From the NCBI RefSeq assembly GCF_003054225.1, contig NZ_QBKQ01000001.1, positions 248,001 through 312,000 of the forward strand: a DNA stretch of 64,000 bases, given 5' to 3'. Positions 5,385-62,203 of the stretch are shown piece after piece. The notes beneath the pieces were generated by a model, which did not search any database, was not told the origin of the DNA, and saw only the letters and a list, made by a program, of their open reading frames with translations. The position numbers and the translations under genes were made by a program. Position 1 is the stretch's first letter, and every line of letters begins with the position of its first letter. The stretch comes from Christiangramia gaetbulicola (GTDB taxonomy: Bacteria > Bacteroidota > Bacteroidia > Flavobacteriales > Flavobacteriaceae).

Positions 5385-6756
5385 AAGTAAAACCTAGTTT
5401 TTTTAATCCGTTTTGTACTTCTGGAGCTCCCATAAAAAGATCCCAGATAAGGCCTGAACGGTAATTCTCTATCATCACTACCATTGGTCCCTGATCTATG
5501 GCCAGGTATTTATCTGCTACCCATGGCTCACCCTCAAGACTGTACGCATCATAAAATCCTGCCGGTCCCCAAAGTAGATCATTAAGATCTGTAAAGAAAT
5601 ATCGCATCGCCGCAAGAGACTTTTCAGGGGTATATGGAATTGAGCTGATAGCAGCCGTAGGAGAAACCACTCCTTTATCGCTATCTGGGGAGTGAGCAGC
5701 ATATCCTAATCCACCATCTTTATTTTTGCTATAACTGGCAGTTAAACCCCATGAATTTGGTCCATAGGTCTTGAAATTGTTTGGGTTTTCCTGGGCATAC
5801 TCATAATTGATCAGGCTATGGTTCACATTAAGATCCCAGTAATTGGCATATTTGTCTGAAAGTCCTTTAGGATTAAGACCCAGGTATGAGTAATGTGCCC
5901 AGAATAAAGGTCCGCCTTTGTCTCCGCGGGTATTATGCTTTAATATTAAAGGTAAACCATAAGCTTCCTTATCTGTAGTTATATTTCCACTTCTGGCCCA
6001 GCCATCATGATAGGCTTTGGCGTCTATGGCGTAATCTGGAGAAGAAGCTGCCATCACATAAGTGATAAGGCATTCATTATAACCTTCGATCATAAAATCC
6101 ATTTCCCATTCATATACCGGAGACCAGTGCCAGTAAATTCCATCCTTGTTGTTGGTATACCAGTTCCATTCGATACCTCTCCAAAGCTCATCATATTTTT
6201 TAGCCACGGCTTTTTCCTTTTCTGAACCATTTTTAAGGTATTCCCTCACTACGATGAATCCCTGTGCTAAAAAAGAGGTTTCCACGATGTCCCCTCCATT
6301 GTCTTTTTCACCAAAAGCCTGAACCTTACCAGTCTCACCGTTAAGCCAGTGTGACCATGCTCCATGAAACCGTGGTGCTTGCGCAAGAAAATTTGCGATC
6401 TTATCAAGTCTTGCTATAGCAGAATCCTGCGGAATAAATCCTCGTTCCATTCCCGAGACTATTCCCATAAGTCCGAAACCTGAACCACCCGTAGTAACGA
6501 CGTGAGAGTCATTCCTTGGGTAATCTCCATCTGGATGAAATCGTTCCCTGGCCATACCACTATTTGGCTCAGCGTAATCCCAGAAATATTTAAGGGTTTG
6601 TTTTTGAACAGTATCAAGAAGTGCTTCTTCAGAAAGTTCCGGCTGCTGTTCAGTGTTTTCCGCTTTCGCCAGATTACCTTCCTGGTTATTCCCATTTTTA
6701 CAGGAAGTAAAAAGGAGTCCGCCAAAAATTGTTATCAGTAAATATCTTTTGAACAT
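5374..6756 (-). CDS. GH144-like (PF10091) glucan hydrolase lipoprotein, paralogue 1
   Basis: I choose the ATG at 6756 because it gives a clean lipoprotein signal (MFKRYLL..., LLFTSC) and leaves 16 bp after the upstream stop; the longer frame would overlap that gene. The catalytic domain spans most of the protein: TGGSGFGLMGIVSGMERG, DIVETSFLAQGF, YWHWSPVYEWEMDF, EGYNE, GPLFWAHYSYLGLNP, NSWGLTAS. The same blocks occur in the next two genes. PF10091 corresponds to CAZy GH144, whose characterised members (Chitinophaga pinensis SGL and a Parabacteroides distasonis enzyme) act on beta-1,2-glucan. The lipid anchor predicts an outer-membrane enzyme. Conserved acidic residues in VET and NE are the likely catalytic candidates, but I cannot assign them. 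Confidence 0.85.
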   Translation of the reverse strand: MFKRYLLITIFGGLLFTSCKNGNNQEGNLAKAENTEQQPELSEEALLDTVQKQTLKYFWDYAEPNSGMARERFHPDGDYPRNDSHVVTTGGSGFGLMGIVSGMERGFIPQDSAIARLDKIANFLAQAPRFHGAWSHWLNGETGKVQAFGEKDNGGDIVETSFLAQGFIVVREYLKNGSEKEKAVAKKYDELWRGIEWNWYTNNKDGIYWHWSPVYEWEMDFMIEGYNECLITYVMAASSPDYAIDAKAYHDGWARSGNITTDKEAYGLPLILKHNTRGDKGGPLFWAHYSYLGLNPKGLSDKYANYWDLNVNHSLINYEYAQENPNNFKTYGPNSWGLTASYSKNKDGGLGYAAHSPDSDKGVVSPTAAISSIPYTPEKSLAAMRYFFTDLNDLLWGPAGFYDAYSLEGEPWVADKYLAIDQGPMVVMIENYRSGLIWDLFMGAPEVQNGLKKLGFTYEK

Positions 6757-47054: not shown

Positions 47055-47107
47055 GTTCTATAATATGAACGTTATCAAAAAAAGAAGACAGAAAAGAATT
47101 CTTGTTT

Positions 47108-47207
47108 GTTATCTATCCGAGACTGAACTCAGTAGAATGTAGCACCTTCTCCAAAGGAGGGTTGCTAAGGTTTCACAGGGTCTATTCCCTCAACCTTTCT
47201 TGATAAC
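47108..47207 (-). ncRNA. SAM-I (S-box) riboswitch upstream of metH
   Basis: In the minus-strand RNA P1 pairs GUUAUC (47207-47202) with GAUAAC (47113-47108). Inside are AAGAAAGGUUGAGGGA, GUGAAACCUUAGCAACC and GGUGCUACAUUC, matching the conserved S-box core (AGAGGnGGAGGGA, UGAAACC..GCAACC, GGUGC). SAM binding should repress metH. A second GATAAC lies between the aptamer and the start codon (47076-47071). Confidence 0.92.
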
Positions 47208-47236
47208 GATTGTTAGTAAACAATGAACTTACAGGG

Positions 47237-61270: not shown

Positions 61271-61311
61271 AAAAAAGTCCCCCTGATTTGCTATTACCAG
61301 GGGGACTTTTT
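61271..61311 (-). terminator. metY-proximal attenuator terminator
   Basis: AAAAAGTCCCCCTG and its exact inverse CAGGGGGACTTTTT (61298-61311) form the stem; on the minus strand it is followed by T6. It lies 35 bp before metY. Its loop repeats ATTTGCTATTAC (61286-61297), also found just before the leader start (61402-61413). Confidence 0.88.
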
Positions 61312-61332
61312 GAATTGAACTTTATAACTAAT

Positions 61333-61401
61333 CTAAATTCTCAAGTTTTGGCAATAGCGTTCCATGTGACACATACACATCACGTCCATACACATCATCA
61401 T
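61333..61401 (-). CDS. Met/Cys-rich leader peptide 1 (metY-proximal)
   Basis: ATG at 61401, TAG ending at 61333: 22 residues, beginning MMMCMDVMCMCHM and ending ERYCQNLRI. Seven Met and four Cys codons. A ribosome stalled by lack of Met- or Cys-tRNA would sit here, 22 nt before the terminator. I found no clean alternative pairing with the terminator arm, so the switch may use a different intermediate. Three in-frame ATGs open the ORF. Confidence 0.78.
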   Translation of the reverse strand: MMMCMDVMCMCHMERYCQNLRI

Positions 61402-61440
61402 ATTTGCTATTACTCTATTTTTCATTTTTACACTTTTACT

Positions 61441-61533
61441 GCCCTTCGACTGCGCTCAGGGTGACGTTTAGTTTTTCGTCAAGCTGAACTCGTTTCAGCT
61501 TCTAATTAGATCCTGAAACAAGTTCAGGATGAC
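61441..61533. repeat. Cluster of three REP-like hairpins
   Basis: CCCT-TCGACTGCGCTC-AGGG (61442-61461), AAGCTGAA/TTTCAGCTT (61481-61502) and ATCCTGAA/TTCAGGAT (61510-61530). They lie between the two leader modules. Confidence 0.78.
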
Positions 61534-61564
61534 AATTTATTATTTCAATTTTAATTTCGGGTAC

Positions 61565-61598
61565 AAAAAAAGCCGCTGCGGTCGGCAGCGGCTTTTTG
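61565..61598 (-). terminator. Promoter-proximal attenuator terminator of the met operon
   Basis: AGCCGCTGC (61571-61579) and GCAGCGGCT (61585-61593) with flanking A/T runs; minus strand T7 tail. The RNA 5' arm contains CGCUGC, which can pair with GCAGCG in leader 2 (61638-61633). Confidence 0.88.
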
Positions 61599-61617
61599 CA
61601 ATTATATCTTTTCAGTT

Positions 61618-61665
61618 TTATGCAATAGAGTGCGCTGCGGAGGTTTCCGGCATCATACACATCAT
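61618..61665 (-). CDS. Met/Cys-rich leader peptide 2 (promoter-proximal)
   Basis: ATG at 61665, TAA ending at 61618: MMCMMPETSAAHSIA. Four Met and one Cys in the first five codons. Downstream leader sequence UCCGCAGCG can pair either with UGCCGGA overlapping the Met codons (one bulge) or with CGCUGC of the terminator, consistent with a segment 1/2/3/4 attenuator. Confidence 0.78.
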   Translation of the reverse strand: MMCMMPETSAAHSIA

Positions 61666-61705
61666 ATTACAAATTCTACTGATCATTTTTTCGTTTTCTG
61701 AATTA

Positions 61706-61737
61706 CAAAGATATGCACGGAAATTTTTAATATCCAA
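61706..61737 (-). promoter_or_regulatory. Canonical promoter for the tandem attenuators and metY operon
   Basis: Minus strand TTG (61737-61735), 21-nt spacer, TATCTTTG (61713-61706): full consensus. No comparable promoter is visible between the two leader modules. Confidence 0.7.
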
Positions 61738-62049: not shown

Positions 62050-62063
62050 TACCCAACATATTG

Positions 62064-62132
62064 AAAGGGATAGATTTGACTGATTGCAACCCTATGATAC
62101 TTTGAAAAAAGTATTTGAAAATGCTAAAGCAG
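62064..62132 (+). ncRNA. SAM-II riboswitch upstream of metK
   Basis: The run GATTTGACTGATTGCAACCC (62073-62092), ATGATA (62094-62099) and AAAATGCTAAAGC (62118-62130) matches the conserved SAM-II (SAM-alpha) order GAUUUnA...UUGCAAnCnC...UGAUA...AAA.GCUAAA. GGG (62067-62069) can pair with CCC (62090-62092) for P1, and the GCUAAAG tract forms the pseudoknot. An extra hairpin ATACTTT-GAAA-AAAGTAT (62097-62114) is inserted in the connecting loop. Confidence 0.77.
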
Positions 62133-62203
62133 AATGTTTACTACACTCCACTTAGCCCTTCACGTCAAATTTTTCCATTCTTATAAATTAAAAAAGGAAT
62201 TGA

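Follow-up and report, generated by a model that had tools for sequence, protein, structure and literature searches.

In trp-type attenuation, a short open reading frame (ORF) carrying codons for the regulated amino acid lies ahead of an intrinsic terminator, and a competing antiterminator is exposed when the ribosome stalls at these codons and masked when it halts at the stop codon. According to the sections available of a 2010 survey, leader peptide systems had, with the exception of ermC, been demonstrated in Proteobacteria and Actinobacteria alone until the survey itself presented a Firmicutes case (PMC2965389). In Actinobacteria, Cys-codon-rich leader ORFs precede cysteine genes, and the candidates covered in the accessible part of that study have no obvious terminators (PMC1262725). 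Bacteroides thetaiotaomicron, which belongs to the same phylum as the organism studied here, has long 5′ UTRs with short ORFs that have been described as reminiscent of attenuation leader peptides; the example precedes a hypothetical protein, and the portions available describe no Met/Cys leader (PMC7366714). For Flavobacterium psychrophilum, the accessible portions of PMC9723704 report strong clues that leader peptides mediate attenuation ahead of operons for amino-acid biosynthesis; the main text contains no occurrence of methionine or sulfhydrylase, and a metY leader may be listed in its supplement (Table S7, SI).

Leader ORFs in tandem have been described in the mgtCBR operon of Salmonella, where mgtM and mgtP lie in one transcript and are each coupled to transcription of the operon. 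They respond to different signals (ATP, proline), which add, and the stem-loops concerned do not resemble intrinsic terminators (PMC3641672, available sections). The same sections describe tandem riboswitches with two ligands at metE of B. clausii.

Here, we analyse a 64,000-nucleotide stretch of the genome of Christiangramia gaetbulicola (the window), in which two short Met/Cys-rich ORFs precede metY on the minus strand. Christiangramia is the genus formerly named Gramella, and the named metY loci nearest to that of the window likewise come from this genus. Our main reading, to which we give a probability of about 0.86, is that these ORFs belong to two trp-type, ribosome-mediated transcription attenuators placed one after the other on one transcript before metY. 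Both modules resemble trp-type systems in having a short ORF rich in Met and Cys codons, an intrinsic terminator before metY and a 2:3 antiterminator that is mutually exclusive with it; leader 2 also has a 1:2 helix. They differ in that each leader would regulate by two amino acids, that two complete attenuators stand in series, that a conserved 1:2 helix was not found in leader 1, whose antiterminator partner lies mostly in the terminator loop, and that they occur in Flavobacteriaceae. The tandem layout of leader ORFs recalls mgtCBR, but in contrast to what the available sections describe there, the codons in the two metY leaders are for the same amino acids, and each leader is followed by a strong intrinsic terminator. 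Such terminators likewise set them apart from the actinobacterial leaders as covered in the accessible part of PMC1262725, with which they share Cys codons. With B. clausii metE, as far as the sections available describe it, they share the arrangement of a methionine gene preceded by two serial switches that work through terminators, whereas the switches at metE are riboswitches without leader peptides. Our searches of open-access main texts found neither a Met/Cys serial attenuator nor a same-signal one described, and a term search of the accessible part of PMC10994844 returned no match. The class of mechanism is a classical one, and Salmonella is known to have tandem attenuators; what appears to be new is that serial gates read the same Met/Cys signal. 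If the reading is correct, the leaders, which are too short for ordinary gene calling and match no Rfam family in the window, would represent a control element that recurs in Flavobacteriaceae, acts on sulphur amino-acid synthesis and has so far gone without annotation. They would also offer a clean natural case of duplicated same-signal attenuation, and hence of why evolution stacks two gates.

On the minus strand, the locus runs from a candidate promoter through leader 2, terminator 2, a 138-nt gap with repeats, leader 1 and terminator 1 to metY. The two Met/Cys leaders, each with its own terminator, were the core of the original prediction, made from the sequence of the window, and all main elements were found in place. 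metY (61236–59944, minus strand) encodes an O-acetylhomoserine/O-acetylserine sulfhydrylase (TIGR01326, 640 bits against a cut-off of 495); the name of this family, O-acetylhomoserine aminocarboxypropyltransferase/cysteine synthase, covers synthesis of both homocysteine and cysteine. It is the first gene of a same-strand met/cys run, followed by metX-like, homoserine dehydrogenase-like and sulfhydrylase-like genes, an Rrf2 regulator, a cysH-like gene, cysD, cysN and a sulfite/nitrite-reductase-like gene, where "-like" denotes a score under the curated cut-off.

The candidate promoter (61737–61706, minus strand) is of the Bacteroidota type and is conserved. It consists of TTG (61737–61735) and TATCTTTG (61713–61706) and lies about 20 nt from leader 2, so placed that transcription is expected to start at about 61700. 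A TAnnTTTG −7 box has been described for flavobacteria (PMC9723704, accessible portions). Promoters were counted in 47 of 56 two-module loci, leaving aside identical loci and those with short upstream stretches. The pattern TTG-N18-23-TANNTTTG occurs in the 110 nt ahead of leader 2 at 32 of these 47 distinct tandem loci, against a Markov expectation of 0.25; the remaining 15, without a strict match, are mostly Flavobacterium with what by eye looks like a variant −7 box. The strict consensus was found in 0/47 loci between the modules and in 0/47 between terminator 1 and metY, and a lone −7 box lies between the modules in one. Moreover, the inter-module gap can be as short as 17 nt (L165) or 23 nt (L154). 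These comparisons bear out the earlier claim of one promoter with none visible between the modules.

The gap in the window contains palindromic dispersed repeats (61533–61478), which are not conserved. Of the three REP hairpins originally proposed there, two are perfect 8-nt hairpins and the third, judged by eye, is weak. We do not count the repeats as part of the switch, since similar ones are scattered over some 40 other sites in the genome and a relative manages with a gap of just 17 nt; they are best regarded as incidental.

Leader 2 has an ORF of 22 codons (MISRICNMMCMMPETSAAHSIA; 61686–61618, minus strand), within the predicted limit of 25. Its segment 2, GCAGCG (61638–61633), is the 5′ side of the antiterminator, lies inside the ORF and can pair with 61585–61590. 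Terminator 2, comprising segments 3 and 4 and a T run (61597–61564, minus strand), has perfect 13-nt arms (61597–61585 and 61579–61567) and a fold of −20.8 kcal/mol (z −4.8) equalled by no shuffle. Because duplex-energy z-scores against shuffled letters, which range from about 0 to −4.5 among the values listed, were often above −2, pairings were tested on alignments. For leader 2 the alignment held 44 sequences, after rows L161 and L174 had been left out and the remainder dereplicated. Here, terminator 2 has 99.5% of cells paired, with 5 of 10 pairs changed on both sides, and the GCAGCG:CGCTGC antiterminator is paired in 260/260 cells (100%), with one compensated pair (AU 20, CG 20, GC 2, GU 2). 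An inner TTGCA:TGCAA helix is paired in just 65% of cells. The 1:2 helix, in which the ICN codons (TGYAAT) face ATTGCA near the stop, is paired in 90.2% of cells and has 5 of 6 pairs changed on both sides. In shuffles that, for both modules, ignore the relatedness of the sequences, its covariation score was reached by 0/500 and its number of both-side-changed pairs by 4/500.

Leader 1 (MKNRVIANMMMCMDVMCMCHMERYCQNLRI; 61425–61333, minus strand) had been given fewer than 25 codons and an MMMCM start; this needs correction, as the ORF has 30 codons from the first in-frame ATG and MMMCM is internal. Segment 2, GCTATTGCCA (61358–61349), pairs with TGGTAATAGC (61290–61299), located in the loop of terminator 1 and the uppermost part of its 5′ arm. 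The terminator (61311–61271, minus strand) has perfect 14-nt arms (61311–61298 and 61285–61272) and a fold of −24.3 kcal/mol (z −6.3), again equalled by no shuffle. In an alignment of 63 sequences (dereplicated after omission of rows L011, L016, L061, L077, L098, L177 and L178), terminator 1 has 97.1% of cells paired and 7 of 11 pairs changed on both sides, and the antiterminator has 93% of cells paired versus 15–64% in slid controls. The antiterminator shows little covariation, as 5 cells changed on both sides and 222/500 shuffles have at least as many pairs of this kind; when extended to fit Flavobacterium, it is 81.5% paired. A conserved 1:2 helix was not found for leader 1, and without a ribosome the folding model pairs its segment 2 upstream with a probability of 0.14. 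Inspection of the window by eye had suggested one candidate, GCTATT pairing with AATAGC close to where the ORF starts; it was dropped, because its AATAGC motif is present in just 7 of 23 genus genomes.

Among the 530 ATG ORFs of 15–60 codons on both strands of the window, the leaders rank first and second by Met plus Cys in the best 14 codons (10 and 6), and none of 7,514 such ORFs in a first-order Markov control exceeds 5. In relatives, modules were selected for Met/Cys content, so this richness is not independent evidence in the alignments. Peptide composition and folding were examined in 51 distinct leader 2 and 50 distinct leader 1 modules from the 56 two-module loci. Leader 2 peptides average 4.0 Met and 2.0 Cys, with Cys absent from 1/51, and leader 1 peptides average 7.2 Met and 3.8 Cys. 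Conservation of the Met and Cys codons, on which the original prediction had staked itself, extends across genera.

Whether the ORFs are translated can be approached through their frame, for which 49 leader 2 and 47 leader 1 loci could be anchored. The length from ATG to segment 2 falls in one residue class modulo 3 in 40/49 (leader 2) and 41/47 (leader 1), and the length from segment 2 to the terminator is distributed 20/15/14 and 24/16/7 over the three classes. This shared frame upstream of segment 2, together with the spread downstream, argues for translation of the leader ORFs. Third-position enrichment was discarded as a proof of coding, being mild in leader 2 (294, 278 and 379 differences at the three codon positions) and missing in leader 1 (351, 485 and 458).

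Translated peptides rich in Met, Cys and sometimes His (MCMCHM) might also be functional small proteins, for example metal-binding ones, with the terminators ending a small-RNA-like transcript. We consider this very improbable: in leader 1 the order of residues drifts among genomes while the Met/Cys content stays, the antiterminator segment sits in the end of the ORF, at a median of 12 nt (leader 2) and 11 nt (leader 1) before the stop, and 22 of 23 family matches of the leader 2 model precede met genes.

The position of segment 2 close to the stop is what ribosome-mediated attenuation would call for, and the two modules were folded accordingly with a model ribosome whose mask extends from the first base of the A-site codon by 18 nt in the upstream and 12 nt in the downstream direction, the nascent RNA extending to the terminator loop. 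The mean probability of 2:3 pairing was 0.39 without a ribosome, 0.92 with a stalled one and 0.02 with one at the stop for leader 2 (51 modules), and 0.79, 0.93 and 0.03 for leader 1 (50 modules). The values for the window itself were 0.00, 0.74 and 0.00 (leader 2) and 0.98, 0.99 and 0.00 (leader 1). Pairing was higher in the stalled than in the stop state in 51/51 leader 2 and 49/50 leader 1 modules, as expected of trp-type control. Because the stalled average is restricted to Met/Cys codons at which the ribosome mask leaves segment 2 uncovered, what it tells us is that every module has codons so placed and that a ribosome at the stop masks the segment. A coarser measure, any upstream pairing, gave 0.98 (leader 2) and 0.94 (leader 1) over all Met/Cys codons, 0.65 and 0.85 over other codons, and 0.55 at the stop in both. 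The median distance from the last Met/Cys codon down to segment 2 is 15 nt in leader 2 and 7 nt in leader 1, so that in leader 1 earlier codons must do the work.

From this anatomy, established by comparison of sequences among relatives for the conservation, alternative pairings, frame signature and single promoter alike, we infer a course of events that includes translation, stalling, termination and a multiplicative response. RNA polymerase would start near 61700. With Met-tRNA or Cys-tRNA in short supply, a ribosome would stall in the MMCMM run of leader 2 and leave segment 2 free; by pairing with CGCTGC in the 5′ arm of terminator 2, segment 2 would let the polymerase pass. With both amino acids plentiful, the ribosome would reach the stop of leader 2 and cover segment 2, and terminator 2 would form. 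About 140 nt downstream, leader 1 would repeat the choice, GCTATTGCCA now competing for TGGTAATAGC, which lies in the loop of terminator 1 and the upper part of its arm, and metY would be reached solely by transcripts that pass both gates, so that leak and induction should multiply. AND-type control, one of the two outcomes first proposed, is not supported as a description of this arrangement: with Met and Cys codons present in leader 1 and leader 2 alike, the inputs should be identical at the two gates, and one signal would be multiplied rather than two combined.

The two gates may nevertheless differ in what happens when no ribosome arrives. In an untranslated leader 2, the conserved 1:2 helix could occupy segment 2, and the gate would tend to close; with no conserved 1:2 helix found in leader 1, an untranslated leader 1 should mostly read through, leaving its gate open. 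These opposite defaults are predicted from the averages for 2:3 pairing without a ribosome (0.39 and 0.79).

The distribution of the modules bears on whether both gates work. Within the genus, both are present in 23 of 24 genomes; the contig of the 24th ends 167 nt upstream and holds leader 1 only. A module scan was run upstream of 170 metY loci, of which 80 are the nearest named ones (the best 80 of 561) and the other 90 were taken from whole genomes, with a few genomes represented twice (for example L009/L093 and L028/L115). The whole-genome loci (L089–L178) come from 98 genomes with metY, of which 8 order-level genomes were left out. Two modules were found at 56 loci, one at 47 and none at 67. 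Covariance models of the leader 2 module (R1) and the leader 1 module (R2) were then applied, each at E up to 1e-4 upstream of metY, with cross-matches between models excluded and the matches counted by hand. Among the best 80 of 561 named loci, 36 have both types, 8 leader 2 type only, 26 leader 1 type only (one of them a cut contig) and 10 neither. The R1 count leaves out L045 (E 2.2e-4), and 3 of the 36 two-module loci are weak for leader 2 (L061, L074 and L077). The locus of an F. psychrophilum strain (L016) holds a pair matched by both models.

In an even sample of 299 family genomes under stricter filters, R1 matched 23, R2 16 and both 14; in all 14 pair-bearing genomes R1 comes before R2 on one strand. 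Training sequences account for 9/23, 8/16 and 8/14 of these, which leaves 6 new pairs. The 23 R1 matches precede metY (20), metX (2) or, near a contig end, a transposase-like ORF (1), and the 14 outside the training set precede metY (11), metX (2) or lie at that contig end (1). The downstream genes were recognised by eye, 17 being newly read and 6 taken from earlier locus sets. So, judged by these counts and downstream genes, the element is far from universal in Flavobacteriaceae, yet specific to methionine genes.

The single-module relatives lend some weight to another reading, in which attenuation falls to a single module, with its partner a relic, left by duplication or by earlier control sequences, that is now drifting. 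The 8 and 26 single-type loci among the best 80 of 561 would fit it, as would a leader 2 that looks degenerate in L045 and L074. On a metY tree of 92 rows, made by a quick method with many weak branches and without the duplicates L009–L013, the leader-1-only label is scattered (12 changes), and leader-2-only loci all fall on one side of one branch; loss of leader 2 looks repeated. Against a relic stand the retention of both modules in 23 of 24 genus genomes, the conservation of terminators, antiterminators and codon runs in both, and the differences between their peptides, segments and terminators, which show that they are not recent copies of each other. We regard it as unlikely that only one gate works, and retain two serial attenuators as our reading. 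A single module can lie directly before the gene, for example in L234, L238 and L243; relatives with one module alone make each module seem autonomous, which suggests that each gate can stand alone, and show that the series is not essential.

metY relatives without modules tend to carry another kind of leader. A SAM-I motif, which is what we take our search pattern to represent, occurs in 54 of the 67 loci without modules (45 with the fuller pattern and 9 with a short pattern) and in 0 of the 103 with modules. Rfam found RF00162 upstream of metY in 10/10 motif-bearing loci submitted and in 0/10 motif-less ones; in one motif-less locus (L147) it found SAM-II upstream of metY. On the quick tree of 92 rows, with its many weak branches, attenuator and SAM control are separated by 2 changes. 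In the window itself, Rfam places a SAM riboswitch before methionine synthase (47106–47209, minus strand) and SAM-II before metK (62060–62137, plus strand), so that three kinds of sulphur-amino-acid RNA control lie within about 15 kb.

With SAM riboswitches upstream of metY in so many relatives, and of methionine synthase in the window, one could suppose that the hairpins at the leaders form a metabolite-binding riboswitch, for instance for S-adenosylmethionine, and that the ORFs are by-products of repetitive RNA. This is hardly credible given that reading frame and Met/Cys codons are kept, that the SAM-I motif and the modules exclude each other in the counts above (54/67 against 0/103), and that no Rfam family reaches gathering score in the leader region. 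The SAM riboswitch families RF00162 and RF01726 have no match in 61271–61737, there is no T-box family match, and SAM and SAM-II alone reach gathering score in the window; sub-gathering matches to Thr_leader and rli38 in the leader region were taken as chance. Returning to attenuation by leader translation, a plausible ground for reading codons instead of SAM would be that metY and the cys genes contribute to cysteine and methionine alike, both of which codons can report.

How the pair would be used can be put forward more tentatively. Gates with the same input and opposite defaults could act as a series filter: leader 2 would close and leader 1 open when untranslated, so that metY would be fully expressed solely when ribosomes initiate and stall on Met/Cys codons, and not if translation merely fails, with a response steeper than that of either gate. 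The pair would have replaced, or given way to, a SAM riboswitch at metY in related genera. We hold this proposal possible, at less than even odds. As one-gate, two-gate and SAM-riboswitch versions exist in relatives at the same gene, the benefit of serial gates is directly testable.

The window holds a third Met/Cys leader (MNIMSNMCMCYSPHT; 52818–52771, minus strand) between cysN and the sulfite-reductase-like gene. It is a single leader with a terminator (52745–52706, minus strand; −15.8 kcal/mol, z −5.5) and is matched by R2 at E 8.7e-4. The leader was found in 22 of 23 genus loci and its terminator, by script, in 16 of 23; it was not seen in five readable loci of other genera, and two more had no recognisable start. 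Among weaker model matches in the organism's own genome, 9 of 10 loci read looked like leaderless terminators and were set aside, the other (L190) being this third module.

Several metY loci depart from the usual arrangement. L019 has an additional 62-codon ORF between terminator 1 and metY (2731–2919). At the leader-2-only locus L043, a small Cys-rich ORF, MKIAIYNPRRCCRMCS, occupies the place of leader 1, by eye with no evident terminator. In L231 (G030), the leader pair is followed by a transposase-like ORF near the contig end, and metY lies near the start of another contig, reflecting an insertion or an assembly break. L020 and L077, titled as Bifidobacterium breve and Lentimicrobium MAGs, respectively, have a flavobacterial-type metY with leaders and are probably mis-binned contigs. 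Finally, L024, L029 and other Flavobacterium carry a second leader pair, matched by both models, some 1.5–2 kb after metY (about 5,600–6,200). What follows the pair is, in L024, an ORF judged by eye to be similar to a C-terminal fragment of MetY and, in L029, a stop-containing frame with a metX-like ORF after it; these second pairs are perhaps remnants of a duplicated metY region in which the leaders were kept.
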